Below, piece after piece: positions 2,242 to 26,159 of a DNA stretch of 45,937 bases. Positions within the stretch are counted from its first letter, which is position 1; each line of letters begins with the position of its first letter. This DNA is from Clostridiales bacterium (GTDB lineage: Bacteria > Bacillota > Clostridia > Lachnospirales > Lachnospiraceae). The position numbers and the translations under genes were made by a program. The stretch covers positions 1 to 45,937 of the forward strand of contig JAJQIK010000040.1 of the NCBI GenBank assembly GCA_021199255.1. Direction: 5' to 3'. Under the pieces are notes generated by a model, which did no database searches, was not told the origin of the DNA, and saw only the letters and a list, made by a program, of their open reading frames with translations.

Positions 2242-3501
2242 TTACCCTTCTGCCACCTCGACTTCCTTGACAAGAGCGGAGTAGGGGATACGCTCGCCGT
2301 TTCGGATGACAAACACATTTTCCGAGTCGCCAGTCATCTCCACATATCTCCGCAGGATGACAGAGGCGTACTTCTCATCCAATTCCATCGAATAACAGAT
2401 ACGGTTTAACTGCTCACAGGCCATCATGGTCGAGCCGCTGCCGCCGAAGGTATCCAGAACGATAGCGTTTTCCTGTGTGGAGTTGCTGATTGGGTATCCC
2501 AGCAAATCGAGAGGCTTGGAAGTCGGATGGTTTTCGTTTCGTTTTGGCTTGTCGTAATTCCAGATGGTGGTCTGTTTCCGGTCGGAGTACCACGGATGCT
2601 TTCCATTCTGTAAGAAACCGTAAAGCACCGGCTCGTGCTGCCACTGATAATCAGAGCGGCCCAGCACAAGGGAGTTTTTCACCCAGATACACACACCAGC
2701 GAGATGGAAGCCTGCGTCCACAAAAGCCTTGCGAAAATTCAAGCCTTCCGTATCCGCGTGGAACACATATGCCGCGCCACCGTTTTCCATGTGCGCGACC
2801 ATGTTCTGGAAAGACTTGTACAGAAATGTGTAAAAGTCGTCACCCTTCATGGAGTCGTTCTGAATGGTCAAGCCATCCGAGGATTTAAAGGAGACTCCAT
2901 ACGGCGGGTCCGTCACAATCAGGTTTGCCTTCTTGCCATCCATCAGCTTAGCCACATCCTCGGAAGAAGTGGCATCGCCGCACATCAGTCTGTGACGTCC
3001 GACTATCCAGACATCTCCCTTTTCTGCAAAGGCCGCTTTCTCCAATGCCTCCGACAAATCAAAATCATCATCCTCGACTTCGCTGTCAGAGCTATTGGAG
3101 AACAGGTCAGCCAGTTCCTTCTCGTCAAAGCCGGTCAGACCAATATCGAAATCCTCGCCCTGCAGGGACTCGATTTCGATGCGCAAAAGTTCCTCATCCC
3201 AACCGGCATCCATTGCCATCCGGTTGTCAGCGAGGATATATGCTTTCTTCTGAGCCTCGGTCAGATGGTCAGCAAATACACAAGGGACTTCGCTGATCCC
3301 CTCAGCTTTTGCAGCCTCGATTCTCCCGTGACCAGCGATTACACCATAATCACGGTCAACAATGACCGGGTTGATAAAACCAAACTCACGCAGAGAGGAG
3401 CGGAGCTTTGTAATCTGCTCCGGCGAGTGTGTCCTCGCGTTATTTACATATGGCACCAGCTTCTCGACCGGCACCAGCTGCATTTCAGATGTAGTTTTCA
3501 T
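2242..3501 (-). CDS. ParB-domain-fused N4/N6 DNA methyltransferase
   Basis: A 419-residue protein. Residues 8-110 form a ParB/sulfiredoxin-like N-terminal domain with IAGHGR (55-60) and the ADNR segment (91-94). Residues 160-395 are a beta-class SAM-dependent methyltransferase, with DPPY at 198-201 before the SAM-binding FGGSGS at 352-357, the order expected for the N6_N4_Mtase family. It would modify adenine N6 or cytosine N4 in DNA. No partner nuclease is adjacent, so it is an orphan methylase, probably protecting phage DNA. ATG 3501 is one base beyond the TGA of the SAM synthetase gene, so the two are translationally coupled; a start at 3612 would overlap that gene. Confidence 0.92.
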   Translation of the reverse strand: MKTTSEMQLVPVEKLVPYVNNARTHSPEQITKLRSSLREFGFINPVIVDRDYGVIAGHGRIEAAKAEGISEVPCVFADHLTEAQKKAYILADNRMAMDAGWDEELLRIEIESLQGEDFDIGLTGFDEKELADLFSNSSDSEVEDDDFDLSEALEKAAFAEKGDVWIVGRHRLMCGDATSSEDVAKLMDGKKANLIVTDPPYGVSFKSSDGLTIQNDSMKGDDFYTFLYKSFQNMVAHMENGGAAYVFHADTEGLNFRKAFVDAGFHLAGVCIWVKNSLVLGRSDYQWQHEPVLYGFLQNGKHPWYSDRKQTTIWNYDKPKRNENHPTSKPLDLLGYPISNSTQENAIVLDTFGGSGSTMMACEQLNRICYSMELDEKYASVILRRYVEMTGDSENVFVIRNGERIPYSALVKEVEVAEG

Positions 3502-3502
3502 A

Positions 3503-4285
3503 TCAGTACAGCCCCCATTCTGCAAATTTCTCAAAACCGCCAACAGACTGGATGAACTGCCTTGCCTGCTCCACAATTTCAGAAAAAGGCACTCCATCAA
3601 TCTCCGTGTCACCGATGGCGCAGCAGAAACGCTGTTCCTCTCCAGTTTCCTGCGCTTTCAGGAAGGCATAAATATTTACAGACACATCCGCCTTAGATAA
3701 GTCCTTACCATGCAGACCACCACCAGTAACAGAGTCAGCCATATCAGAACCGAGTTTCCTGTTGGTCGCACCCGTGTCAACATCCGTGCCGCCGCTCCAG
3801 TCGCCGAGCGGATTAATTTCCGCATCCGTATATACATTTCGCAGCTCATCTGTCGGAGCGTTGCTCTGGCAGATAATCAGTCGGTCACCGTCTAAGATGT
3901 ACTTTCCGTCAGAAGTGTACTTTTCATAGATAGCGTGAGCTATCTCAGAGAGCCGTCTCTGTTCATCATTCAAAGGCACACCCTTAAAAATCCCATTGTC
4001 ACCGCAGCGGATTTCATCAGCCTGATTGTCAGCGAGCAGCCTATCCTGTGCCACAATCACAATGTCAGGCACTACCGGACCGGCAATCCTGTGGACTGCC
4101 TCCTGTACCTCCAGCTCATTTAAATCCGCCGTGGTCTCGATGATGACATGACAGACGCCATGTCCAATCAACACCTCAACAGCGATTTTTGGATTCTCCT
4201 CTGAAGCGTATGCCAGGTCGACAATCGCTCCGGCAATCCTGTCCGCCACCTTATCCGGATGACCCGGATTTACTTTCTCTATCAT
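3503..4285 (-). CDS. metK: Compact S-adenosylmethionine synthetase (phage type)
   Basis: A 260-residue methionine adenosyltransferase, against about 380-400 residues for cellular MetK. The NPGHPDK motif (substrate histidine) opens the protein, GDNGIFKG matches the central glycine loop, and the GGTDVDTGATNRKLG...GGGLHGKDLSKAD block matches the conserved phosphate-binding region. The product would be SAM from methionine and ATP. It is directly coupled to the downstream DNA methyltransferase, which uses SAM, so a local supply role is likely (inference). The start at 4285 follows AAAGGAATG. The short length appears to be native to the phage form and not a truncation, since all core motifs are present. 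Confidence 0.9.
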   Translation of the reverse strand: MIEKVNPGHPDKVADRIAGAIVDLAYASEENPKIAVEVLIGHGVCHVIIETTADLNELEVQEAVHRIAGPVVPDIVIVAQDRLLADNQADEIRCGDNGIFKGVPLNDEQRRLSEIAHAIYEKYTSDGKYILDGDRLIICQSNAPTDELRNVYTDAEINPLGDWSGGTDVDTGATNRKLGSDMADSVTGGGLHGKDLSKADVSVNIYAFLKAQETGEEQRFCCAIGDTEIDGVPFSEIVEQARQFIQSVGGFEKFAEWGLY

Positions 4286-11987: not shown

Positions 11988-12351
11988 GATGAAGGAACTT
12001 TCCATGATTCTCGACGAGATGATTGAAAGCGGAAACAACATGGCAGCTGCGGCCACAGCCTTAAAGAAATATTTCTCCGAGGCATCGGCAGACACAGCGT
12101 CGCAGGTGCAGAAGCCGGAGCCGCCGGTTCAGGACACCGAGCCAGCAGTACAGAAAAAAGATGTCTCCTTAAAAAAGGAAGATGTCAGAAAGCTCCTCGC
12201 TGATAAGGCAAACGCGAACGGCGGAGCTCACAGGGCTGAGGTAAAAGCACTTGTGAAAAAGTATTCCGGCAGCGGATACTTAAGCGACATTAAGCCGGAG
12301 CAGTACGAAGCACTTGTTGCGGAGCTTGGGGAGGTGACCGGCGATGCCTAA
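11980..12351 (+). CDS. Phage protein of the 'rrp5-like' annotated group (123 aa)
   Basis: The start is ATG 11980 (or ATG 11977 directly before it), with GGAGGTG upstream inside the previous gene. The N-terminal part is helical (MKELSMILDEMIESGNNMAAAATALKKYF), a Pro/Glu/Gln linker follows, and the C-terminus has KKEDVRKLLADKANANG...VKALVKKYSGSGYLSDIKPEQYEALVAELGEV, a helical domain resembling LEM/Rho-N type modules. Databases often label such proteins rRNA biogenesis protein rrp5, without support. It overlaps the DUF2800 gene by 8 nt. Confidence 0.7.
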   Translation: MGKMKELSMILDEMIESGNNMAAAATALKKYFSEASADTASQVQKPEPPVQDTEPAVQKKDVSLKKEDVRKLLADKANANGGAHRAEVKALVKKYSGSGYLSDIKPEQYEALVAELGEVTGDA

Positions 12352-13462
12352 ACACGCACTTCTCTCAGCATCCGCAAGCCACAGATGGCTTGCTTGTACG
12401 CCTTCCGCAAAAGCATGCGCCGATATCGAGGAGCGTGCAAGCCCCTACGCAAAACAGGGGACCGACGCGCACAGCCTGTGTGAATTCAAGGTATCAAAGG
12501 CACTCGGTCGGGACACGACTGACCCTACCGAAAATCTGGATTACTTTGATGCGGAAATGGACAACTGCACCGATGACTACTGCTCATATGTTTTGGAGCA
12601 GATAGAGGAAGCAAAGAAGTTCTGTGCAGACCCTCTCGTTCTCATCGAAACCAGATTGGATTTTTCCAGGTGGGTACCTGAAGGTTTTGGAACCGGCGAT
12701 GCCCTCATCGTATCTGATGAAGAATTGCACGTCATCGATTTTAAATATGGACTCGGCGTTTTAGTCGAGGCAGAAAGCAATCCGCAAATGATGTGCTATG
12801 CGCTCGGAGCGCTTGATGCATACGACGGCATCTATGAAATCAAAACCATAAAAATGACGATTTTCCAGCCAAGGCGAGGAAACGTCAGCACGGCAATCAT
12901 TGACAAGGATGCGCTGCTTCACTGGGCAGATGAGACGCTCGCTCCAAGGGCAAAGCTTGCATACGAGGGGGCCGGTGAGTATGTGGCCGGTGAACACTGC
13001 CAGTTCTGCAAGCTGAAAGCGACCTGCAGAAAACGCGCCGAGTACAATCTGGAGCTTGCAAAATACGATTTTGAAATGCCGGATACCTTGGAGCCAAACG
13101 AGATAGCAGCCATTCTTCCAAGAATTGAAGAACTCATTGCCTGGGGCGGGGAGGTTAAGGAATATGCTCTCGAACAGGCACGCTCAGGCGTAAAGTATGA
13201 AGGCTTTAAGCTGGTTGAAGGCAGATCCGTCCGCAAATACACCAACGAGGCGCAGGTTGCGCTGGAGGTGGAAAAAGCCGGATATGACCCTTACGAAAAG
13301 AAGGTTCTTGGCATCACGGCAATGACCTCGCTCCTCGGCAAAAAGAAGTTTGAGGAGATTCTCGGCGGACTCGTTATGAAGCCGCCCGGAAAACCGACAC
13401 TCGTGCCGGAAACGGACAAGCGTCCGGCACTTAACACAGCATCAGATGATTTTAAAGAATAG
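12344..13462 (+). CDS. DUF2800 phage nuclease (RecB/Cas4-like)
   Basis: A 372-residue DUF2800 protein. It begins MPKHALLSASASHRWLACTPSA and contains the RecB-type nuclease pattern: GTDAH, ETRLDF, GTGDALIVSDEELHVIDFKYG (Asp and Asp-x-Lys), and PQMMCYALGA. A cysteine cluster CQFCKLKATCRKRA near residue 215 resembles the iron-sulfur or zinc site of Cas4/AddB-like enzymes. Such phage proteins act as recombination exonucleases. It stands between the 123-aa gene and the ssDNA-binding protein, a standard recombination cassette. Confidence 0.88.
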   Translation: MPKHALLSASASHRWLACTPSAKACADIEERASPYAKQGTDAHSLCEFKVSKALGRDTTDPTENLDYFDAEMDNCTDDYCSYVLEQIEEAKKFCADPLVLIETRLDFSRWVPEGFGTGDALIVSDEELHVIDFKYGLGVLVEAESNPQMMCYALGALDAYDGIYEIKTIKMTIFQPRRGNVSTAIIDKDALLHWADETLAPRAKLAYEGAGEYVAGEHCQFCKLKATCRKRAEYNLELAKYDFEMPDTLEPNEIAAILPRIEELIAWGGEVKEYALEQARSGVKYEGFKLVEGRSVRKYTNEAQVALEVEKAGYDPYEKKVLGITAMTSLLGKKKFEEILGGLVMKPPGKPTLVPETDKRPALNTASDDFKE

Positions 13463-13474
13463 GAGATTTTAATT

Positions 13475-14038
13475 ATGGCAAAGTTTGAAAATCCGACAAA
13501 GGTTATTACAGGAGTTAACACCAGATGGTCTTACGCTAACGTATGGGACCCGAAGTCAATCAACGGCGGCGCACCGAAGTACAGCGTCAGCCTCATCATC
13601 CCGAAGGATGATACCGTAACTGTAAACAAGGTAAAGGCTGCCATCCAGGCGGCATACGAGGAAGGCGAGTCAAAGCTTAAGGGCAACGGCAGGACCGTAC
13701 CGGCGCTTAAGACCCTTAAGACACCTCTCCGCGACGGTGACCTTGAGAGACCCGATGACCCGGCTTATGCGGGCAGCTATTTCATGAACGCGAACTCCGC
13801 GACTGCTCCCGGCATTGTCGATGCTGACCGTCAGCCGATTATCGACCGTTCCGAGGTTTACTCCGGAGTCTACGGCAGGGCGAGCGTTAACCTGTATGCC
13901 TTCAACTCAAACGGCAACAAGGGCATCGCGTGTGGCTTAAACAACCTGCAGAAGATTCGCGACGGCGAGCCTCTTGGAGGCAAGTCCAGGGCCGAGGACG
14001 ATTTCGCAACTGAGGAAGACGACGACTTTCTCGACTGA
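13475..14038 (+). CDS. DUF2815 single-stranded DNA-binding protein
   Basis: A 187-residue DUF2815 protein, a family related to the Enc34-type phage ssDNA-binding proteins. It has an OB-fold-like beta pattern (KVITGVNTRWSYANVWDP, KYSVSLIIPKDD, YSGVYGRASVNLYAFN) and an acidic tail DDFATEEDDDFLD, the type of C-terminus through which SSB proteins bind partners. It follows the DUF2800 nuclease by 12 nt and has AGGAG upstream, so the two are in one operon. It would coat ssDNA during replication and recombination. Confidence 0.87.
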   Translation: MAKFENPTKVITGVNTRWSYANVWDPKSINGGAPKYSVSLIIPKDDTVTVNKVKAAIQAAYEEGESKLKGNGRTVPALKTLKTPLRDGDLERPDDPAYAGSYFMNANSATAPGIVDADRQPIIDRSEVYSGVYGRASVNLYAFNSNGNKGIACGLNNLQKIRDGEPLGGKSRAEDDFATEEDDDFLD

Positions 14039-14040
14039 CC

Positions 14041-14062
14041 TTTTACTCACATTTGAGTAAAA
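14041..14062. repeat. Palindrome after ssDNA-binding protein gene
   Basis: TTTTACTCA-CATT-TGAGTAAAA is a perfect 9-bp inverted repeat directly after the stop codon. It may be a weak terminator or an mRNA 3'-end hairpin; downstream bases on the plus strand are not T-rich. Confidence 0.5.
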
Positions 14063-14066
14063 CACC

Positions 14067-14088
14067 GGCGGCAGGATACTCTGCCGCC
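14067..14088. repeat. GGCGGCAG/CTGCCGCC hairpin, copy 1
   Basis: Stem GGCGGCAG with loop GATACT. The same 8-bp stem occurs at 14324-14348, and a 7-bp version at 16366-16393, so each of the gene ends in this part of the operon carries one. No T-run follows this copy. Confidence 0.55.
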
Positions 14089-14108
14089 ATATAAAGAAAG
14101 AGGTAACT

Positions 14109-14318
14109 ATGGACACACTGATATATTTTTTCGCTGTTTTAGGCGTTGTATTTTTCGCTGTATTAATCATCCTTGCGGCCATGTATGTCGCAGGCGAAAT
14201 AAAAAACTCCATGCGCTATCGCAAGCGCTCCAAGAACAATATCACGAGGCTGATTGACCAGATGGGTGAAATCCAGTGCGGTATCAACGACATAAAACAG
14301 AATGTTAAAAAGCAGTAA
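14109..14318 (+). CDS. Small membrane protein (69 aa)
   Basis: Residues 3-28 are a single hydrophobic segment (LIYFFAVLGVVFFAVLIILAAMYVA), followed by a basic, helical cytoplasmic tail (MRYRKRSKNNITRLIDQMGEIQCGINDIKQNVKK). AAAGAGG lies close upstream of the start. I do not recognise a family. It sits between two identical hairpins and inside the replication operon, so it may tether replication proteins to the membrane, which is speculation. Confidence 0.6.
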   Translation: MDTLIYFFAVLGVVFFAVLIILAAMYVAGEIKNSMRYRKRSKNNITRLIDQMGEIQCGINDIKQNVKKQ

Positions 14319-14323
14319 TCAGA

Positions 14324-14348
14324 GGCGGCAGGATGTGTTTCTGCCGCC
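14324..14348. repeat. GGCGGCAG/CTGCCGCC hairpin, copy 2
   Basis: Same 8-bp stem as 14067-14088, with a 9-nt loop. It lies 5 nt after the stop of the membrane protein gene and 22 nt before the polymerase start, so it may insulate or adjust expression of the two genes. Confidence 0.55.
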
Positions 14349-14370
14349 TGTTATAATAAGGAGCAGATGT

Positions 14371-16362
14371 ATGTCAAATATAAAAAGTCTTGAAATTGAT
14401 ATAGAAACATTTTCGTCTGTCGACCTTGCAAAAAGCGGGGTGTACCGCTATGCCGAGTCTCCCGATGCAGAGCTTCTGCTGTTTGGCTACTCTGTAAACA
14501 GTGGTCCGGTAAAGGTGGTGGACGTGGCCTGCGGGGAGAAAATCCCGGAAGATGTGATAGCCGCGCTGTCCGACGACTCTGTCTTAAAGTGGGCATTCAA
14601 CGCATCTTTTGAACGTGTCTTCTTATCCATCTGGCTCGACAGAAACTACGAGCAGTACTTTAGTTCCTACAGTATCAATGAGGATACCGTAGGCAGCTAT
14701 CTCGACCCGTCTTCCTGGCGTTGCTCCATGGTCTGGTCGGCTTACATGGGACTGCCGCTTTCGCTTGAGGGAGCCGGTGCCGTGCTTGGTCTCGATGAGC
14801 AGAAAATGAAAGAAGGCAAGGCGCTTATACGCTACTTCTGCCGCCCTTGCGCTCCGACCGGTGCAAACGGCGGACGCACAAGGAACCTCCCAGAGCACGA
14901 TAGAGAAAAATGGGAACTGTTCAAGTCTTATAATAACCGCGATGTGGAAGTAGAGATGGCAATCCAGCAGAAGCTGGCAAACTTCCCCGTTCCCGATTTT
15001 TTATGGGACGAGTACAGGCTTGATCAGGAGATAAACGACAGAGGCATTGCCGTCGACATGGGAGTGGTCGATAACGCCATCCGCTTTGACGCATTCAGCA
15101 GGACTGCGCTTATGGCATCCATGAAGGAAAAGACCGAACTTGAAAATCCGAATTCCGTGCAGCAGATGAAGACATGGCTCTCTGATAGGGGTGTGGATGC
15201 AGAGTCGCTTGATAAAAAGGCTGTCGCAGAGCTTATAAAGAGCGTTCCATCCGATGTTGCTGATATCCTTCGTCTCAGGCAACAGCTTGCAAAGTCGTCT
15301 GTCAAAAAATATCAGGCAATGAAAAATGCCACCTGTGCCGATGGCAGAGCCAGAGGTATGTTTCAGTTTTATGGCGCAAATCGGTCCGGAAGATGGGCTG
15401 GAAGAATCATTCAGCTGCAGAACCTGCCGCAGAACCATCTTAATGACCTTGCTGAAGCCAGGTCATGCGTAAAGTCAGGCGATTACGAACTCATGAATAT
15501 GCTGTACGACGACATTCCCGATACACTCTCGCAGCTGATCAGAACAGCCTTTGTACCACGAAAGGGTGACAAATTTGTGGTGGCGGACTTTTCTGCGATT
15601 GAAGCAAGGGTGCTTGCCCACCTTGCGCACGAAAGCTGGCGAACAGAGGTGTTTGCCAATAATGGAGATATCTATTGTGCATCCGCATCCGCCATGTTCC
15701 ACGTCAAGGTTGAAAAACACGGAGAGAACGCTCATCTCAGACAGAAGGGCAAAATAAGCGAGCTGGCTCTCGGCTACGGCGGTTCCGTTGGTGCTTTAAA
15801 GTCGATGGGAGCCCTTGAGATGGGCTTGACAGAAGACGAGCTTAAGCCCCTTGTGGATGCCTGGAGAAAATCAAATCCGAACATCGTCCGTTTCTGGTGG
15901 GACGTTGACCGAGCAGTCACCGAGGCTGTAAAAAACAGAAGCACCACTGAAACGCACGGCATCCGCTTCCGGTATAAAAGCGGTATGCTCTTTATCCTGC
16001 TGCCGTCCGGCAGGCAGTTATCATATGTAAAGCCGCGTATCGGAGAGAACCGGTTTGGCGGCGAGTGTGTGACATATGAAGGCGTAGGCACAAACAAAAG
16101 ATGGGAGCGCATCCAGTCATATGGTCCGAAATTCGTGGAGAATATCGTCCAGGCGATAAGCCGAGATATACTTATGTACGCCATGAAGACCCTGCAGCAT
16201 TGCTTTATATGCGGACACGTTCACGATGAATTAATCATCGAATGCAGCACAGGTGTATCTGTTGATGCCATATGTGAGCAGATGGGAAGAACCCCTCCAT
16301 GGATTTCAGGACTGCTTTTAAAGGCAGACGGATATGAATGCGATTTTTACCAGAAGTCATAA
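14371..16362 (+). CDS. Phage family A DNA polymerase
   Basis: A 663-residue polymerase of the phage PolA type. The 3'-5' exonuclease has D10 and E12 (EIDIETFSS) and the ExoIII-like YNNRDVEVE (187-195). Polymerase motif A is DFSAIEAR (406-413), motif B RQKGKISELALGYGG (457-471) and motif C HVHDE (616-620), so all catalytic residues are present. It replicates phage DNA together with the primase-helicase. ATG 14371 follows AAGGAG; an earlier in-frame start lies inside the previous hairpin and is unlikely. A terminator follows directly. Confidence 0.95.
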   Translation: MSNIKSLEIDIETFSSVDLAKSGVYRYAESPDAELLLFGYSVNSGPVKVVDVACGEKIPEDVIAALSDDSVLKWAFNASFERVFLSIWLDRNYEQYFSSYSINEDTVGSYLDPSSWRCSMVWSAYMGLPLSLEGAGAVLGLDEQKMKEGKALIRYFCRPCAPTGANGGRTRNLPEHDREKWELFKSYNNRDVEVEMAIQQKLANFPVPDFLWDEYRLDQEINDRGIAVDMGVVDNAIRFDAFSRTALMASMKEKTELENPNSVQQMKTWLSDRGVDAESLDKKAVAELIKSVPSDVADILRLRQQLAKSSVKKYQAMKNATCADGRARGMFQFYGANRSGRWAGRIIQLQNLPQNHLNDLAEARSCVKSGDYELMNMLYDDIPDTLSQLIRTAFVPRKGDKFVVADFSAIEARVLAHLAHESWRTEVFANNGDIYCASASAMFHVKVEKHGENAHLRQKGKISELALGYGGSVGALKSMGALEMGLTEDELKPLVDAWRKSNPNIVRFWWDVDRAVTEAVKNRSTTETHGIRFRYKSGMLFILLPSGRQLSYVKPRIGENRFGGECVTYEGVGTNKRWERIQSYGPKFVENIVQAISRDILMYAMKTLQHCFICGHVHDELIIECSTGVSVDAICEQMGRTPPWISGLLLKADGYECDFYQKS

Positions 16363-17788: not shown

Positions 17789-18586
17789 TTATCCTTCCAT
17801 GAAAGCGCAGTTCAAATAGCAATCTATCTCATCCAGAACATGCTGAAGGCTCACGTCCCTCGGAATGTATTTCAAATCCTGCAGCCTGTAATAAGCTGCT
17901 TCCTGTGATACGTTAAAAACTTCCGATACTTCTGCCATCTCCACGTAAAACAGATATGGACTTTTCTTATTGCTGCCTATAACCCTTCTCATCAGGATAT
18001 CAACCGCCGTCTTCGGCATAAGAACAGCTGCCGAAAAAGCGTTAGCCTGCCACTCCATTCGCTCCGCATCGCTCCACAGTTTTGGATTCTTGCCTGGCGA
18101 TTTTTTCCCATCAACCCTACATTGAACCATCGCAGGAGAGTCCTCTTCAATAAAATCCCATATTGTCATCTGGTTAGGATCTATGTGAAAATAAGGGATA
18201 TGGAATACCTCATGTCCTGCTTCATGTCCCATCGTAAAACGATACCGATGCTCCTGATTACTCTCTAGAAGAGAATTATCAATGATTACCGTGTGTGCCT
18301 TTGCGCTGATATATTCAGCTTCATCGGTTACTGGATTATATACAGGCACCTTGTTCGTATCATTAAAAACAGTCATTCCAAGATACACCCCACAATGGGA
18401 GAGGTACTGAAAATCCTGCTCCATCTTCAAATAATCCTGCACCAGTAGGTCGATGTCGACTGCCTGCGGCTCTTTCAACACCTCTGGGCAAAAATCCCTG
18501 ACAACCATATCCCCAATATCGTTAATCTCATCCTTCTTGAGGATGGGAACACCCACACGTGTTCGTCTGATATTTAAACCTATCAT
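17789..18586 (-). CDS. ImmA/IrrE family metallopeptidase
   Basis: A 265-residue protein with the zinc protease motif HEAGH (in FTMGHEAGHEVFH, about residue 120) and a downstream Glu in ERMEWQANAFSAAVLMP, the usual ImmA/IrrE pattern. The C-terminal part has a winged-helix-like segment (EVSEVFNVSQEAAYYRLQDL). In other elements ImmA cleaves the resident repressor after DNA damage, here presumably the XRE protein encoded just upstream. Start ATG 18586 is chosen to avoid a 43-nt overlap with that gene (alternative 18640). The product lies 12 nt downstream of the repressor gene. Confidence 0.88.
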   Translation of the reverse strand: MIGLNIRRTRVGVPILKKDEINDIGDMVVRDFCPEVLKEPQAVDIDLLVQDYLKMEQDFQYLSHCGVYLGMTVFNDTNKVPVYNPVTDEAEYISAKAHTVIIDNSLLESNQEHRYRFTMGHEAGHEVFHIPYFHIDPNQMTIWDFIEEDSPAMVQCRVDGKKSPGKNPKLWSDAERMEWQANAFSAAVLMPKTAVDILMRRVIGSNKKSPYLFYVEMAEVSEVFNVSQEAAYYRLQDLKYIPRDVSLQHVLDEIDCYLNCAFMEG

Positions 18587-18597
18587 ACCCGATACAT

Positions 18598-18975
18598 TTA
18601 CCCCTTTCTCCTCTTTAGCTCCTCGACAAATTGTTTCCATTCTTCTTCCCCGGCATCGAGGTCTCGTGCCGTTCTGAGTGCGCTGCTTACATAGTCCCTT
18701 TCCATGATGTATTCTGGCAAGTCTGGGGCAATCTGGTCCCTTGTACGTCCTGCAAGGTCAAGCATAAGTTCCTTTTCATCCTCTGACAGTTCAAGTATCA
18801 CAGCGATTTTGTTCAGTTTGTCGATGTCAAAGGAATTTCTTCTGTTCTTTTCAACGTCGGTCAGGAAAGGCGCCGACACACCCAGCTTGCTGGCCATCTC
18901 TCTCAAGGTAATCTTCTTTTCAACTCTTTTTTCTTTGATAAATTCACCAAAATTCGCATACATTTCATTCACCAT
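18598..18975 (-). CDS. XRE family repressor
   Basis: A 125-residue protein. Residues 5-62 are a helix-turn-helix of the lambda Cro/C1 type (FGEFIKEKRVEKKITLREMASKLGVSAPFLTDVEKNRR). The rest is helical and acidic (LSEDEKELMLDLAGRTRDQIAPDLPEYIMERDYV). It is the likely lysogeny repressor, paired with the ImmA/IrrE protease downstream. ATG 18975 is used; ATG 18963 is an alternative with GGTG upstream. A 20-bp palindrome 65 nt upstream is shared with the zinc-ribbon gene and is its probable operator. Confidence 0.88.
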   Translation of the reverse strand: MVNEMYANFGEFIKEKRVEKKITLREMASKLGVSAPFLTDVEKNRRNSFDIDKLNKIAVILELSEDEKELMLDLAGRTRDQIAPDLPEYIMERDYVSSALRTARDLDAGEEEWKQFVEELKRRKG

Positions 18976-19366: not shown

Positions 19367-20017
19367 ATGTCCAATCTTATAACACTAGACGATGCCAGTC
19401 CCTCCGTTCAGTATTTGTGTCAGAAGGATAAGCGGCTGGCAAAAGTTATCAGTATGGTCGGTCCGATTAGCTATATTCCCCACGATGAGAATGCTTACCC
19501 ATTCTTGATACATGAGATTATAGAACAGATGCTCTCGATTAAAGCGGGGCAGAAAATATACGGTCGACTCGAGGAATTGTGCCATGGTGATATCACTCCA
19601 GAGCAGATAACTTTTTTATCTGATGAACAGATTCGAGGTACCGGAACCTCAAATGCAAAAGTTAGTTATATCCGTAATATGACAAATGCAATTATGGATG
19701 GCTCTATTTGCCTTGAGCAGTTGAGGAATCTATCTGACGAAGATGTCATAAAGGCTTTGACGAAAATACGCGGCATCGGAAAATGGACAGCTAAGATGTA
19801 TCTGATTTTCGTTCTAGACCGCCCTGATGTACTGCCAGTAGAAGATGGTGCATTTTTACAAGCGTACCGGTGGATGTATAAAACCGATGACTGTAGTGAA
19901 AAAACAGTCTATAAAAAATGTAAAAAGTGGAAGCCATATTCGTCAACCGCGTCTCGATTTCTTTATCGCGCATTAGATACCGGACTGACAAGGCAGGAAT
20001 TCCACATATTTAAATAA
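19367..20017 (+). CDS. AlkA-like HhH-GPD DNA glycosylase
   Basis: A 216-residue protein. The helix-hairpin-helix reads KIRGIGKWTAKMYL (133-146), followed by VLPVEDGAF with the catalytic Asp at 160, and KWKPYSSTASRFLYRAL, all as in 3-methyladenine DNA glycosylase II. No Cys cluster for an iron-sulfur centre is present, so it is not MutY/Mig-like. It would remove damaged or mispaired bases. It is 18 nt upstream of the restriction enzyme gene and probably co-transcribed. ATG 19367 has GGAGG 9 nt upstream; ATG 19358 is too close to it. The coding sequence is AT-rich compared with the phage genes. Confidence 0.88.
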   Translation: MSNLITLDDASPSVQYLCQKDKRLAKVISMVGPISYIPHDENAYPFLIHEIIEQMLSIKAGQKIYGRLEELCHGDITPEQITFLSDEQIRGTGTSNAKVSYIRNMTNAIMDGSICLEQLRNLSDEDVIKALTKIRGIGKWTAKMYLIFVLDRPDVLPVEDGAFLQAYRWMYKTDDCSEKTVYKKCKKWKPYSSTASRFLYRALDTGLTRQEFHIFK

Positions 20018-20035
20018 TATGGAGGTTATAAAATA

Positions 20036-21685
20036 ATGGCCAATAAGCGGAATAATTTAGAGGCGAATGAAGCCTTTCTTCAATATGAAGAAGAAATCGC
20101 CAACCACCCGGCATACGCAGGAATGCCAGATCTTCGCCACGATGATGGAACAATTCAGTGGGAAGCTCCATCAAATAGAGGTTCTGGTATTTTCCAATTT
20201 TCACACGACAAGCGCTATCAATGGTGGGTTGAAAAAGCAGCTGAAATCGGCATTAGTACTGACGAAGATAAATGGATTAGTAAGGTTGCCAAAACAATTC
20301 ATCCGACAAAATTGCATCCGTGCAAAGTTTGCGGTCGGGTTATGGATATCCGGTACTGTTACTTGTCCTCAAACTTCATAAGAAGAGTTCAAAAGCTACC
20401 CTTTTATGACGGCTCTATCGAAATGGAGGAAATAACACACATTTTAGATTTTGTAACAGCCTTTGTCGATACATATGGTGATGATGCTTATGACTCCTTG
20501 CCCGGCTTATTAAAATGTACACAAGTAAAAGAATTTCCCAGTTTGCCCCATGAGCTTTCCTCATGGACATCTTGGATAGAGCAAAGCTATATTCCCAAAG
20601 AACCCAGCATGCTTAGCCCAGGTGCTATGTCAAACGCCCCTGATCGCCTTGACGGCTTTCATACATTTAACCGTTGTTGTCGTTCTAAGGCGGATAAAGG
20701 TCGTTCAAAAGAAAATCTCGCGTCATATTCAACTGATAGAAGAGCTTTTGAAAATTGGAGTGATGGCAACTGGATCACAGCTAATAAATTGATGGGATTT
20801 ATCAGTTCCAACCCTGATATGAAACAAGAGCGCTGTGCAAACGTTGGAAACGGCGGACAGCATCCGCGTCCGTGTAGTGCAGACCATATTGGCCCTATAT
20901 CTCTTGGTTTCTGCCATAGACCTGAATTTCAGCTTTTATGTACACGCTGTAACAGTGCAAAAAATAATAGGATGTATTTTTCGGATGTTTGCCATTTGAT
21001 TGAAGTTGAAAAATCTGGAGAAAACGTTGTTACATGGTACGCAAATTCAATTTGGCAAAAATGTAAAGGAAAAGTAAATGACAAAGAATCTGCATTGAGA
21101 CTTAGTCGTGTGATGCGTGATAATCGCAACATAGCCATGATGCTTTTAGCAGACTTTATCGGCAAGAATGAATATCTATTTTTATTCACACTGCTTAATC
21201 TGGAATATGCTGACTATGATTATGAAATCATACCTGGTTCGACAAAAATCAGCAACCAAATAGTAACGGTAGCTTTCTCGCAGAAAGCAAGTACTTTGAG
21301 ATATGTGAATATCCAAAAAAAGAGAAAGATACGAGTCGCCTTTTCCTCTCTTTCTGAATACGCCAAGAAGGAAAATCGCAACGGTTACACTTACACTAAT
21401 TCAGAGATAGAAGCACTTAAAGAACATGCATTCAGTATTCTGTCCAATGTTAACGATAGTTTAAAAGAGCAGAATAAAGCCCTTATAAATGCGCTCTCTG
21501 ATGAAAACCACGTTGATTCCGAATTGGAATCTTTCTTATCTCGTGTGGATTACAATATGCTCAAGCACACAAATGAATTTGTTCATGCAAAAGAGTTGAT
21601 GAAACAAATAATGGAATTGGTTGCTCAGGAACTTGCTTCCAACTGGGATGACCCTCGTTATTCAAGAGAAACTGCAGAAGATTAA
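20036..21685 (+). CDS. Type IIS restriction endonuclease, Alw26I/Eco31I/Esp3I-like (HNH)
   Basis: A 549-residue protein. The HNH active site is D283-H284 in CSADHIGPISLGF and N306 in LLCTRCNSAKNN, with Cys pairs C267/C280 and C302/C305 for zinc. The His-to-Asn spacing of 22 residues equals what I recall for Eco31I (H312, N334). A first Cys pair lies at CKVCG (96-99). Family members cut outside GTCTC-type sites; the target here is inferred only from the family. GGAGG lies before ATG 20036. It converges with the fused methyltransferase, with one shared terminator between them. Confidence 0.85.
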   Translation: MANKRNNLEANEAFLQYEEEIANHPAYAGMPDLRHDDGTIQWEAPSNRGSGIFQFSHDKRYQWWVEKAAEIGISTDEDKWISKVAKTIHPTKLHPCKVCGRVMDIRYCYLSSNFIRRVQKLPFYDGSIEMEEITHILDFVTAFVDTYGDDAYDSLPGLLKCTQVKEFPSLPHELSSWTSWIEQSYIPKEPSMLSPGAMSNAPDRLDGFHTFNRCCRSKADKGRSKENLASYSTDRRAFENWSDGNWITANKLMGFISSNPDMKQERCANVGNGGQHPRPCSADHIGPISLGFCHRPEFQLLCTRCNSAKNNRMYFSDVCHLIEVEKSGENVVTWYANSIWQKCKGKVNDKESALRLSRVMRDNRNIAMMLLADFIGKNEYLFLFTLLNLEYADYDYEIIPGSTKISNQIVTVAFSQKASTLRYVNIQKKRKIRVAFSSLSEYAKKENRNGYTYTNSEIEALKEHAFSILSNVNDSLKEQNKALINALSDENHVDSELESFLSRVDYNMLKHTNEFVHAKELMKQIMELVAQELASNWDDPRYSRETAED

Positions 21686-21723
21686 AAAAACCGACCATCT
21701 TTCACAGATGGTCGGTCATTTTT
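21684..21723. terminator. Bidirectional terminator between endonuclease and methyltransferase
   Basis: ACCGACCATCT pairs with AGATGGTCGGT around a 5-nt loop; A-runs on the left and T-runs on the right let it work for both converging genes. Confidence 0.9.
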
Positions 21724-24544
21724 ACTGAGTATAACTATCAAGGTATTCATCGGGAGTTATCTCTCCTCGCATAAACTTTTGATATGGATTTGCAGCCGGG
21801 AATCGATAATTATAACTACTACCGTCTTCTCCTGGTTGCAACGGCGGTAAATCGCCAATTGCATCCTCAACCCCTATAATAGGAGGAAGTAGCGAAAGTT
21901 GCCCATCCTTCGGAACACAGGATATTTCATGCATATTAAAATGTCGGATTAGATTTGTCTCCCCACCAATAATTATGACTCGATCCCTTCTTTGTGGCAC
22001 ACCGTAATTTGCAGCACTGACTTGGTTGACTTTAATCTCAGCAACACATTCTTTCAGTTCAGCTTTAATCATTTCAAAGAATTGACCTTTGTCTAAATTG
22101 AGTATTCCTCGAACATTTTCAAATACAAAACCATCTGGTCTGATGGCCTTGACGATACTGGCATAGGACCTAAATAGCCAGTTTCGCATATCTGCGGTTC
22201 CTCTACGTGTGTTAGCTGTTGAAAACCCTTGGCATGGAGGACCACCTAATACAAATAAAGGTAGATTCGGATTTATTTCTCTTGCAGCTAACGCTTTTTC
22301 TACTATACTATCGTGTACTTCCTTGCTGTTAATATCCCCGACAATAGTTTCACCACCAAGGTTCTTTTTATGAGTCTCAACCGCATAATGATCAATATCA
22401 TTTCCAATAATCGGAGTCCATCCAGCCCAAATAAATCCCAAGGCAAGTCCCCCTGCTCCACAAAACAAATCCACAAACTGGCCCTTGAAGGGTATGTTTT
22501 TTGCAATTTGATATGCTAACAACGGTGGTACTGCATTACCAATTTGATTGTTGACTGCTCCGAGAGAGCCAATAAACTCAAATGAATCAGGAAAACTCTG
22601 AAATCGAGCGGCCTCTCTTTGTGAAATGGTTCTATCCTGATCATAATGCATATTGCATCCATTTCCAGGACGGTTAAAATAGGTATTGATAGTATACGCA
22701 GGCATCTCTGGGCGAAGCCTACCATAATATGTAGACCGGCTTCCTTTCCCTGCCTTGTAGCTTTCTCGGATTTGTGCTAGCCTTTGTGACGGTACACTCT
22801 CGGGAATATTTTTCCAGTTCCCTCCTTGTGGAACACACTTAATAACTTGCATATCCAAGTCACTCAATGATGATGCATAATGATTGAAAATCATAGTCTT
22901 TTTTTCTCCATCTTGATTTTTCAAATGATACTGTTGAATGATATCCGAACATTGCTTATCATTCATTTCGAATGAACTTACAATCGTTTTGTATCCATCA
23001 ACAGATAGCCCGTACAGGTGTGCAACAGCCAATTCAATTGCCTCTTCTACATCTTCACCTGCCAACTGCTTATCTACTAATTCTATAATATTTTTTTTAA
23101 CATATGGTTGTGGAACATGAATCTGTTTCACAATTCCCGCAGACACATGATTTGAAACCAATTTGCTTCTAGCCTGATATTCGTATACCATTGAATTCAT
23201 TATTGCGAGGAGCATCTTAAGGTATGGCAGCGTAGCATCATCACCATAAATTACACCCAGTGAATTCCCGCAAATATATCCTGGAGGCAACAATGTAGCT
23301 TTTATCCGTCTCGTTTGCGAGTCTCGTGACACGTCTCGCCACACTATTTTATACATGTACGAACTTTGCGGTGGAACTACCATTTTCTCATTGAGAAACA
23401 GCTTGTCACTCGTAAAGGAATATCGATCCACCATATATCCTTTCGCAAACTCAATAGTGCCATAAGGTTGCAGTTTCTCTTTTACTCTTGTTTCATCCAA
23501 TTCCCGCGTAAAATGTAATCCCGTATTATTGCAAAAGCTTTCCGTCGAAGGCAATTGCTCAAGGTACATCATTATAGGAATGGCTTCTATTCCTGTTTTT
23601 AACGGAATGCAGTAACCAGTTCGCTTAATGTATTCAAAAACAGCTTTTTCTATTTTCTTTTCTTTATAATCATCCTTGTCGTTGTAAATTCTAACGCTAA
23701 GGCTCTGGTCTGTTTTGCCGCCTTTAACTACCATTGTTATACTTGATATGTCTGCACTTCCAAACAACTTTAATTCTGCTGGATAATAGGAGACATTAAT
23801 CACCTTATAATTTTCAAAAATCCAATTCCTCAGCTTGCCTGAAACTTGATCATTGAGAAGTGAGGCTGGAGAAACAATACCACAAAATCCATCTTGCTTA
23901 ATTAAACGAAGAGCAACCTCAGTTCCACATCTTGCAAGGTTTGTACCCCATTTTCCAAATTTTGAAGACGGCTGTGAAATTTCAAAAGCTTTTTTCATGT
24001 AAGAATCATACTGTTCTATTGCATTTCGATAGGCAATCAAAGCATCTTCATCATTGTTCTTGCTAAACAGTTTTTGTGGTTTTAAAAGACCCCAAGGTGG
24101 GTTAGTCACACATATATCAAACTTCCCGCAAACTGTATCATATTCTACAAATGCATCTGCTTGACGCGCATCAATTTTGCACTGCAAACTATTAGACTTG
24201 CAATAATTTAATATTTCTCTTTTCGCTACATTAACTGCTTCTTCATCTATGTCCCAGACTGAGATAACAAGGTTCTTGGATATCAGTTTATCATTCTTCA
24301 TCAATTCTGAAAGCAAAGAGATGATAAGTCTTCCATCTCCGCAGAATGGATCAATTATATGAAGCTCAGAAGAAAAGGCGTCAAATACATATCTTTGGCG
24401 TAAAACCTGCATCATGCTCGAAGCAATGTCATAATCCGTATAAAATTTTCCAAGAAGCTTTTCGTCTTCAAAATCCGTTTGCGTAAATCCATCAACAAAC
24501 TGATAATATTCTTTACTTAACTCGTGTGGAGTTTTAGCCAGCAT
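21722..24544 (-). CDS. Fused adenine-N6 and circularly permuted cytosine-C5 DNA methyltransferase
   Basis: A 940-residue fusion. Residues 1-540 form a gamma-like adenine methylase: DPFCGDGR (65-72), NPPW (148-151) and a long target-recognition part, as in the Alw26I/Eco31I/Esp3I family. Residues 550-940 form a cytosine-C5 methylase whose motif order is rotated: the target/IX region (RLRPEMPAYTI 609-619, SQREAARFQSFPD 641-653) and motif X (QIGNAVPP 667-674) come before motif I (FVDLFCGAGG 690-699), PCQ (770-772, catalytic C771), ENV (809-811) and QRRDRV (851-856). Both activities would protect an asymmetric site on its two strands. GGGAGGGG precedes the start; the HTH_17 gene lies 29 nt upstream. 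Confidence 0.92.
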   Translation of the reverse strand: MLAKTPHELSKEYYQFVDGFTQTDFEDEKLLGKFYTDYDIASSMMQVLRQRYVFDAFSSELHIIDPFCGDGRLIISLLSELMKNDKLISKNLVISVWDIDEEAVNVAKREILNYCKSNSLQCKIDARQADAFVEYDTVCGKFDICVTNPPWGLLKPQKLFSKNNDEDALIAYRNAIEQYDSYMKKAFEISQPSSKFGKWGTNLARCGTEVALRLIKQDGFCGIVSPASLLNDQVSGKLRNWIFENYKVINVSYYPAELKLFGSADISSITMVVKGGKTDQSLSVRIYNDKDDYKEKKIEKAVFEYIKRTGYCIPLKTGIEAIPIMMYLEQLPSTESFCNNTGLHFTRELDETRVKEKLQPYGTIEFAKGYMVDRYSFTSDKLFLNEKMVVPPQSSYMYKIVWRDVSRDSQTRRIKATLLPPGYICGNSLGVIYGDDATLPYLKMLLAIMNSMVYEYQARSKLVSNHVSAGIVKQIHVPQPYVKKNIIELVDKQLAGEDVEEAIELAVAHLYGLSVDGYKTIVSSFEMNDKQCSDIIQQYHLKNQDGEKKTMIFNHYASSLSDLDMQVIKCVPQGGNWKNIPESVPSQRLAQIRESYKAGKGSRSTYYGRLRPEMPAYTINTYFNRPGNGCNMHYDQDRTISQREAARFQSFPDSFEFIGSLGAVNNQIGNAVPPLLAYQIAKNIPFKGQFVDLFCGAGGLALGFIWAGWTPIIGNDIDHYAVETHKKNLGGETIVGDINSKEVHDSIVEKALAAREINPNLPLFVLGGPPCQGFSTANTRRGTADMRNWLFRSYASIVKAIRPDGFVFENVRGILNLDKGQFFEMIKAELKECVAEIKVNQVSAANYGVPQRRDRVIIIGGETNLIRHFNMHEISCVPKDGQLSLLPPIIGVEDAIGDLPPLQPGEDGSSYNYRFPAANPYQKFMRGEITPDEYLDSYTQ

Positions 24545-24573
24545 TTCTCAACCCCTCCCAAATAGAGTATTTA

Positions 24574-24768
24574 TTAGTCCATAGCACTTTTTCCACTCTT
24601 AACCCACTCATCCAGTTCGGAGTATTTAAATTTCCATTGCTTACCGATTTTATGAGCAGGAATGTCTTTCCCTTTTCGAATCCAGTCACGCACAGTTGCT
24701 GGCTTCACCCCAAAATAATCGGCTGCTTCATCAATGCTAATCCACTTTTCCTCAACATTCTCACTCAT
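24574..24768 (-). CDS. HTH_17/excisionase-like DNA-binding protein (64 aa)
   Basis: One MerR-like winged helix, WISIDEAADYFGVKPATVRDWIRKGKDIPAHKIGKQWKFKYSELDEWV, the excisionase-family DNA-binding fold. It heads the methyltransferase transcript, 29 nt upstream, so it probably controls expression of the restriction-modification genes in the way C proteins do, though it is not a member of the XRE-type C family. Alternatively it could be a phage excisionase. GAGGTG precedes ATG 24768. Its promoter and a partly palindromic site lie directly upstream. Confidence 0.75.
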   Translation of the reverse strand: MSENVEEKWISIDEAADYFGVKPATVRDWIRKGKDIPAHKIGKQWKFKYSELDEWVKSGKSAMD

Positions 24769-25073: not shown

Positions 25074-26159
25074 TTATGGGTTACAATTTCCACAAGGCGA
25101 GTAGCCTTGGCTTATCAGGTCATCCCTGTTTCCGGTGTATTCCTTCTTATTCTTCTCGCTCATCTGACTCACGCTTGAGCAATCAGGATAATGGAATTTC
25201 TTAGTGTTGGTATTCAGAATATAGGTTGTGCCGGAGCTGCTTGTTTCTCCTGTAGTCTCTTCCGTATTCTCGGATGTCACCGCCGTCACGGTTGTCTCAT
25301 TGGTATCCTCATCCTCAAGCCAACTATCTCCGGTAGCATAATCGATGCTGACTCCTGGCTGCACGTTGTAACAGTAAACATTAAACAGAATACCGTCGCC
25401 GTCATCCTCCACGGACATTGCCTCCATCAGCACGCCGCTTGCAACGAGATTATCACCGTCAAATACAGGTGTCACCCTGTAAAGGACGTGGTTATTTGTT
25501 TCCTCTACATAGTCAGCCACCATGTTTTCAAACGGTAGCATACCTTCCACATTCAGATACCTCGTACCAGTGATGAGGTTCTTCTCATTGGCATTCTCTC
25601 CTGAAAGCTGGTATCCAATTAGATGGCAACGATTATACAGATAATTCCCATCAACAATATCATACTTCACGGTATGCCAGCCGGTGGGCTTCACAGAACC
25701 AATAGCGCCTCTTTCTTCTGTCGGCATGATGTCCTGTCCTATATTGGCGATTGCCACTCCACAACGCCCCAAGGAGTCAAGATCGCTGTAATACTCATAT
25801 GACTCAGTGGTAAGGTCTGAATCTGTAAAGAAAGGAACGTTATCATTGACAGCGACATAAGCTAACCCAGAATACTCCGGCACCTCAGACAGGTCAAAGG
25901 ATGTCTGGCTTGATATTTCTGCAGCCGGTTCCTCTGTTTCCGACTGCTCCTCGGTTTCCGTGACTTCTGGTTCTGCTGTTTCTGTCACGGTTCCTTCTGA
26001 CGTCCCCTGTGACTCCACAGCCGTTGACAAAACCTCCTGCGTGGTTTCGGATGAGCTTTCACTGTAATCGGCTTCAGATGAGCAGCCAAACAGTGCAAAA
26101 CAGAGCACTACTGAGATTAAGTAGGCTATAACCCGCTTGCTAAACTTCTTTTTTCTCAT
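25074..26159 (-). CDS. Lipoprotein DNA/RNA non-specific endonuclease with C-terminal Zn-type tail
   Basis: A 361-residue secreted protein. A signal peptide ends with LFGC (lipid-modified Cys 26), then a Ser/Thr/Glu linker to about residue 85. Residues 95-270 are a beta-beta-alpha metal nuclease of the EndA/Spd type: YNRCHLIGYQLSGENANEKNLITGTRYLN with H179 as base and N191/N194 near the metal. The tail (313-361) has HYPDCSSV and GYSPCGNCNP, a domain often attached to secreted nucleases. It would cut nucleic acid outside the membrane, perhaps incoming phage DNA or for nutrition. ATGA overlap with the 133-aa gene shows coupling. Confidence 0.9.
   Translation of the reverse strand: MRKKKFSKRVIAYLISVVLCFALFGCSSEADYSESSSETTQEVLSTAVESQGTSEGTVTETAEPEVTETEEQSETEEPAAEISSQTSFDLSEVPEYSGLAYVAVNDNVPFFTDSDLTTESYEYYSDLDSLGRCGVAIANIGQDIMPTEERGAIGSVKPTGWHTVKYDIVDGNYLYNRCHLIGYQLSGENANEKNLITGTRYLNVEGMLPFENMVADYVEETNNHVLYRVTPVFDGDNLVASGVLMEAMSVEDDGDGILFNVYCYNVQPGVSIDYATGDSWLEDEDTNETTVTAVTSENTEETTGETSSSGTTYILNTNTKKFHYPDCSSVSQMSEKNKKEYTGNRDDLISQGYSPCGNCNP

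Follow-up and report, generated by a model that had tools for sequence, protein, structure and literature searches.

The window analysed here is the 45,937-nt stretch at positions 1–45,937 of contig JAJQIK010000040.1 of the Clostridiales bacterium assembly GCA_021199255.1 (Lachnospiraceae). It carries a restriction-modification (R-M) island in which a gene for an AlkA-like HhH-GPD DNA glycosylase stands before the gene of a restriction endonuclease (REase). With R and M denoting the REase and methyltransferase genes, and m6A and m5C denoting N6-methyladenine and 5-methylcytosine, the island is laid out as follows:

19367–20017, plus strand: QM-clade AlkA-like HhH-GPD glycosylase, with the motif HEIIEQMLS, catalytic D163 and M58 at the wedge position
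20036–21685, plus strand: Type IIS REase of the Alw26I/Eco31I/Esp3I family, 18 nt after the glycosylase gene and with its own ribosome site
21690–21717, between R and M: terminator-like inverted repeat, readable in either direction, from a terminator search
21722–24544, minus strand: fused methyltransferase that converges on R, with an m6A part (TIGR02987) followed by an m5C part (PF00145) in circularly permuted form

All three genes are full-length frames. The start of the glycosylase gene at 19367 was chosen by its ribosome site, and its residues are numbered from the 219-aa open reading frame (ORF). Matches above cut-off to PF09665, TIGR02986 and TIGR02987, together with PF00145, place the system in the Alw26I family. 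The permuted order of the methyltransferase motifs was judged by eye, and the reading of a permuted m6A and m5C fusion also rests on excerpts of PMC5944983. The REase family, the m6A plus permuted m5C methylation and the convergence of R and M are all as in Alw26I/Eco31I/Esp3I systems; in the excerpted text of PMC4659465, R of an Eco31I homologue likewise lies on the opposite strand. Since 10 terminator-like sites were found in the region against 4.6 expected, the argument from the repeat between R and M rests on its position and not on its score. The original prediction had noticed an AlkA-type HhH-GPD glycosylase with a catalytic Asp, 18 nt before a type IIS-like REase gene whose partner methylates cytosine at C5, and this was confirmed. 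It had explained the arrangement by a repair enzyme standing in for Vsr and acting on T:G mismatches or by-products of m5C or, alternatively, by antiviral base removal.

The HhH-GPD domain and fold of the window glycosylase are those of the small AlkA/Mag1-type alkylpurine DNA glycosylases, its closest known fold relatives (2h56, 2yg8 and 3s6i; Mag2, 4hsb). The catalytic Asp after the hairpin, D163, is present in 61/61 members of the QM clade compared and in 18/18 controls, which are ordinary small AlkA genes of the same class (QQ-type). The presumed DNA-wedge position, by contrast, is Met (M58) in 61/61 clade members and Gln in 18/18 controls. The fixed changes of the clade comprise M58 at the presumed wedge and P160, F166, Q168 and Y203 around the catalytic Asp, so that its wedge and active-site positions are unlike those of all 18 controls; compared with the small AlkA/Mag1-type enzymes, the clade has Met for Gln, Pro160, Phe166 and Tyr203, plus a linkage to R-M systems. 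A non-catalytic binder of abasic sites or lesions, acting as sensor or shield like Mag2 of S. pombe, is highly improbable, because D163, G139, G141 and W143 are unbroken in all 61 members whereas the Mag2 hairpin is changed (G-V-K). In named phage records the closest glycosylases are those of NatCom_6392 (73.5%) and TPDSL_ph1 (61.5%), in both cases an ORF in the place of the REase follows 15 nt after the gene, and two more phage matches were obtained at 33–34%. Many clade copies lie in phages, in prophages, or beside Lamassu or candidate defence genes.

A search alignment of seven glycosylases gave 55 loci in a genome scan and 13 in a viral scan (4 already in the set). With L127 added and the window and two phages included, 72 loci were collected, 68 of them distinct after near-duplicates were dropped (L033, L075, L077, L078), and eight ended too soon after the glycosylase (L006, L030, L036, L041, L052, L062, L066, L080). 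Of the 60 judged loci, 48 have a DNA methyltransferase gene no more than 3 kb before or 6 kb after the glycosylase, as scored by hidden Markov models (HMMs), each built on two to six local sequences, which may overlook some enzymes; this count includes four loci with broken, cut or short frames (L065, L067, L068, L073). For the controls, 27 QQ-type loci were fetched and 18 of them read at +/-7 kb. None of these 18 had a methyltransferase by HMM or motif (about -3/+7 kb), and a methyltransferase label within 1.5 kb was seen in 0/27. The difference between 48/60 and 0/18 gives a Fisher p of 4e-10 with relatedness ignored, and chance neighbours were rejected because no control was linked. Conserved linkage in other genomes, the absence of which the original prediction had named as counting against it, is thus present.

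The glycosylase accompanies nine recognisable REase families, with m5C, m6A-type and mixed methyltransferases as partners, and at the majority of R-M-linked loci its gene points the same way as the R-position gene and almost abuts it. For unassigned ORFs in that position the REase identity rests on position: no over-threshold Pfam family was found for those of L006, L007 (two), L015, L034, L039, L047, L061 and L068 and the first of L051, and NCBIfam gave nothing above cut-off for ten R-position ORFs. The R-position family of L006 and L019 has an EcoT38I-like predicted fold (mean pLDDT 79.7 and pTM 0.59, with other models as low as 54), and a 680-aa R-position ORF has, by eye, what we take to be a PD-(D/E)xK-like motif. 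In L026 (8672–11371, plus strand) a single 899-aa frame directly behind the glycosylase combines an Alw26I-type REase with an m5C methyltransferase, and a second fused methyltransferase converges on it.

Vsr, and the mismatch glycosylase Mig.Mth of Methanobacterium, are repair-type genes carried beside R-M systems. The QM gene resembles them in this respect, and the main idea of the original prediction is that it repairs T:G (or 3-methylcytosine) where the m5C partner has methylated the DNA, replacing Vsr or Mig. Consistent with this, an m5C enzyme occurs in 38 of the 48 linked loci, the m5C label is clustered on the glycosylase tree (17 changes versus a shuffled mean of 26.1), and a Vsr gene is present at just one distinct glycosylase locus. 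The scarcity of Vsr says little, however, since it lies within 1.5 kb of just 2/30 background m5C genes, and no m5C enrichment was drawn from methyltransferase counts in 96 genomes because Type III and orphan enzymes are mixed in. The remaining 10 of the 48 loci have only non-m5C partners by the models used (for example EcoRV- and HincII-type), which a gene of the Vsr or Mig type would not be expected to accompany, and on the tree, a quick search without bootstrap in which 36/76 inner branches are weak, the label switches between m5C and non-m5C about 9 times. (L076, with Pfam N6_N4, counts as lacking a methyltransferase among the loci but as non-m5C in the tree; L068, whose glycosylase frame is truncated to 73 aa, was scored as non-m5C in the locus count and left out of the tree.) Moreover, the glycosylases of L014 (SacI plus m5C) and L034 (only m6A-type enzymes, D12 and N6_N4) are 95% identical in protein, and L013 and L023 have the same glycosylase before m5C and m6A-type systems. 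Unlike Vsr and Mig.Mth, the QM gene runs with R, while M converges and the two-way terminator-like repeat separates R from M. At the LlaJI-type locus L058 a Vsr gene occurs together with the glycosylase and two m5C enzymes. In the window genome two Vsr genes lie in the vicinity of other m5C enzymes: one is adjacent, the other separated by a 1095-aa ORF. Given the non-m5C partners, the label changes and the glycosylases shared across methylation types, an m5C-only repair role was rejected, and repair in place of Vsr fails as a general role; we regard it as quite unlikely. A glycosylase beside an m5C enzyme should not be read as a Vsr substitute without a survey.

Comparison of related loci suggests that R-M modules have been exchanged behind the glycosylase. 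DNA homology stops within 30 nt of the glycosylase stop codon in 12 of 18 pairs of relatives, which are not independent (L014, L034 and L063 form one group); in the others it runs on for more than 1 kb (five pairs) or ends at 42 nt (one solitary pair). Only pairs of at least 80% identity were used, because at lower identity an end of homology at a gene border is expected. For some 6 kb ending at the glycosylase stop, L014 and L063 (both m5C) and L034 are 95–99.6% identical in DNA; homology is lost there and regained downstream. The window and L017 have the glycosylase gene alone in common (82.9%), followed by Alw26I in one and SacI in the other, and the pairs L024/L027 and L021/L027 share essentially the glycosylase alone. 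In L043/L064 and L022/L028 windowed identity falls within the glycosylase gene, as if crossovers had occurred there; the incoming modules would therefore already carry a glycosylase.

This pattern could mean that the gene is a recombination hinge or hitchhiker, kept mainly as a common homology arm for swapping R-M and left-hand defence modules in phage hotspots. The ends of homology at the stop codon, the pairs with little but the glycosylase in common and the identity drops inside the gene all support such a role. Yet the protein itself is under purifying selection, also beside systems with m6A-type enzymes only: the glycosylases of L014 and L034 differ by a nonsynonymous rate (dN) of 0.023 and a synonymous rate (dS) of 0.257, a dN/dS of about 0.09 (for L046 and L050, dN is 0.205 and dS saturated). 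The unbroken catalytic set, the dependence among the 18 pairs, the link in other gene orders (L070, L079) and the link of a different AlkA to R-M on plasmids (L009, L166) also speak against the hinge, which we consider unlikely.

Since the relatives adjoin unrelated R-M systems whatever their methylation, the glycosylase looks like a restriction helper and not an m5C repair tool. On the basis of the linkage, the operon-like layout, the clade, its residue set, purifying selection and module exchange, we predict, with a probability of roughly 0.4, that it is a catalytically active, specialised AlkA-like glycosylase that serves Type II restriction and not cytosine methylation. It would be made together with the REase, flip out and remove some modified or alkylated base by means of D163, leave an abasic site, and so help while restriction is active; most likely its targets would be DNA with base changes that block the REase or escape it. 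The antiviral base-removal enzyme of the original prediction comes close to this. A more specific form, which we put forward only tentatively, is that the QM glycosylase is a second effector in many Type II R-M cassettes, its AlkA fold retuned to excise phage base modifications that escape the REase, so that the REase would cut unmodified DNA and the glycosylase damage modified DNA. If so, R-M systems carried by phages would commonly include an antiviral glycosylase of the HhH-GPD type as an accessory. Descriptions of R-M cassettes usually list R, M and C genes and in some cases a V gene; a clade that stays before the REase while R and M swap behind it would be a new accessory gene for that list. 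The natural pairs, with near-identical glycosylases but different REases and methylation, let one ask which base is removed.

Several observations weigh against a role in restriction. By the models used, 12 of the 60 judged loci have no methyltransferase (L025, L032, L042, L048 with an internal stop, L049, L053, L054, L055, L056, L069, L071, a remnant, and L076), and nine of these are apparently solitary chromosomal copies on long contigs. Because these solitary copies do not differ from the linked ones in their residue set, that set does not depend on R-M linkage. The m5C share of 38/48 may lie above background. In L058 the REase and glycosylase genes are convergent, in L070 and L079 the glycosylase comes after R, and no R was seen in L127. 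The same REase families also occur without the glycosylase (L016, L163–L165, L167–L171), and none of the seven Alw26I loci outside the clade that could be judged has it (L016, L165, L167–L171; L169 shows just 547 nt upstream, and L172 is not judgeable), unlike the window system. The glycosylase is therefore facultative for Alw26I systems. A link special to this family, beside which the original prediction had proposed a survey, was rejected, other R-M families being linked and the outside Alw26I loci not. In even draws, an Alw26I REase was present in 2/392 genomes of the order (G000 and G391, the latter of the same family as the window genome), both with the glycosylase, and in 4/398 genomes of the phylum, with it in G000, without it in G724 and G941, and not judgeable in G757. 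On the viral contig L016 (7974–9641, plus strand) an Alw26I-type REase stands without the glycosylase behind an LmuB-like ORF and the small helix-turn-helix (HTH) gene that precedes the glycosylase elsewhere.

The solitary copies also fit another explanation, namely that the gene is alkylation-repair cargo for the prophage or host, removing damage of the 3-methyladenine or 7-methylguanine type, perhaps from stray methylation by the methyltransferase, with its place before R reflecting shared transcription. The fold and the closest solved relatives, being alkylpurine glycosylases, agree with this. However, the host already has a Tag-type enzyme, the 18 ordinary AlkA controls are not linked to R-M and all differ from the clade at wedge and active-site positions, and the glycosylase is read with R, not M. 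We think such a repair function possible, though doubtful.

Among known systems, the antiviral DNA glycosylases Brig1 and Brig3, uracil-DNA-glycosylase-like in the excerpts of PMC11078745 and PMC13160076, are likewise encoded in a defence setting, but the QM glycosylase is of the HhH-GPD type and placed before REase genes. In the PabI family the REase is itself a glycosylase (excerpts of PMC10273834); here too a glycosylase lies within an R-M system, but a separate Alw26I-family REase gene is present. In the parts of the literature searched on these topics, neither an AlkA/HhH-GPD glycosylase as a standing Type II REase partner nor an HhH-GPD antiviral glycosylase was described, and no PADLOC model matched the glycosylase.

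A second glycosylase, of the OGG type, was found next to and co-directional with an m5C methyltransferase in L013 (9774–10586), L018 (10890–11714), L019 (7821–8648), L044 (9753–10577) and L072 (11321–12148), all on the minus strand, and before the QM gene in L037 (7186–8004, plus strand); remnants occur in L006 and L012. The L018 copy contains PF07934 and resembles MBOgg1 (1.7e-50) and the OGG of C. acetobutylicum. Each of the six complete copies belongs to an m5C locus, L019 and L072 being near-copies of each other, and the OGG-type glycosylase beside m5C methyltransferases is a better candidate for Vsr's place than the QM glycosylase.

Upstream of the QM gene, LmuB-cluster (Lamassu) genes were seen in 13 loci (L006, L017, L018, L021, L022, L024, L025, L028, L030, L037, L044, L047, L080), PDC-S53-type defence genes in 7 (L007, L012, L036, L043, L064, L068, L074) and PDC-S06-type genes in 6 (L019, L039, L051, L061, L072, L073), these labels having been tested on one representative per gene and extended by clustering. 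The order at these loci, defence genes, then the small HTH gene, then the glycosylase, is that of a defence hotspot. Past the methyltransferase, a 154–160 aa ORF, ASCH/PUA-like by eye, recurs in L007, L031, L035 (a contig of Lachnospiraceae AC3007), L051, L064, L067 and L074.

The window island itself adjoins prophage replication genes, and its surroundings are as follows:

2242–3612, minus strand: phage-type ParB-like protein fused to a DNA methyltransferase
12344–16362, plus strand: prophage replication module of phage exonuclease, Gp2.5-like single-stranded DNA-binding protein and family A DNA polymerase
17789–18640, minus strand: ImmA/IrrE-type peptidase (PF06114), adjoining the XRE gene
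18598–18975, minus strand: XRE-type regulator (HTH_19, HTH_3), divergent from the glycosylase
25074–26159, minus strand: DNA/RNA non-specific endonuclease (PF13930), directly past the island

The XRE regulator is a possible controller of the glycosylase, and together with the ImmA/IrrE-type peptidase (17789–18975, minus strand) it may render the glycosylase-REase operon responsive to DNA damage.
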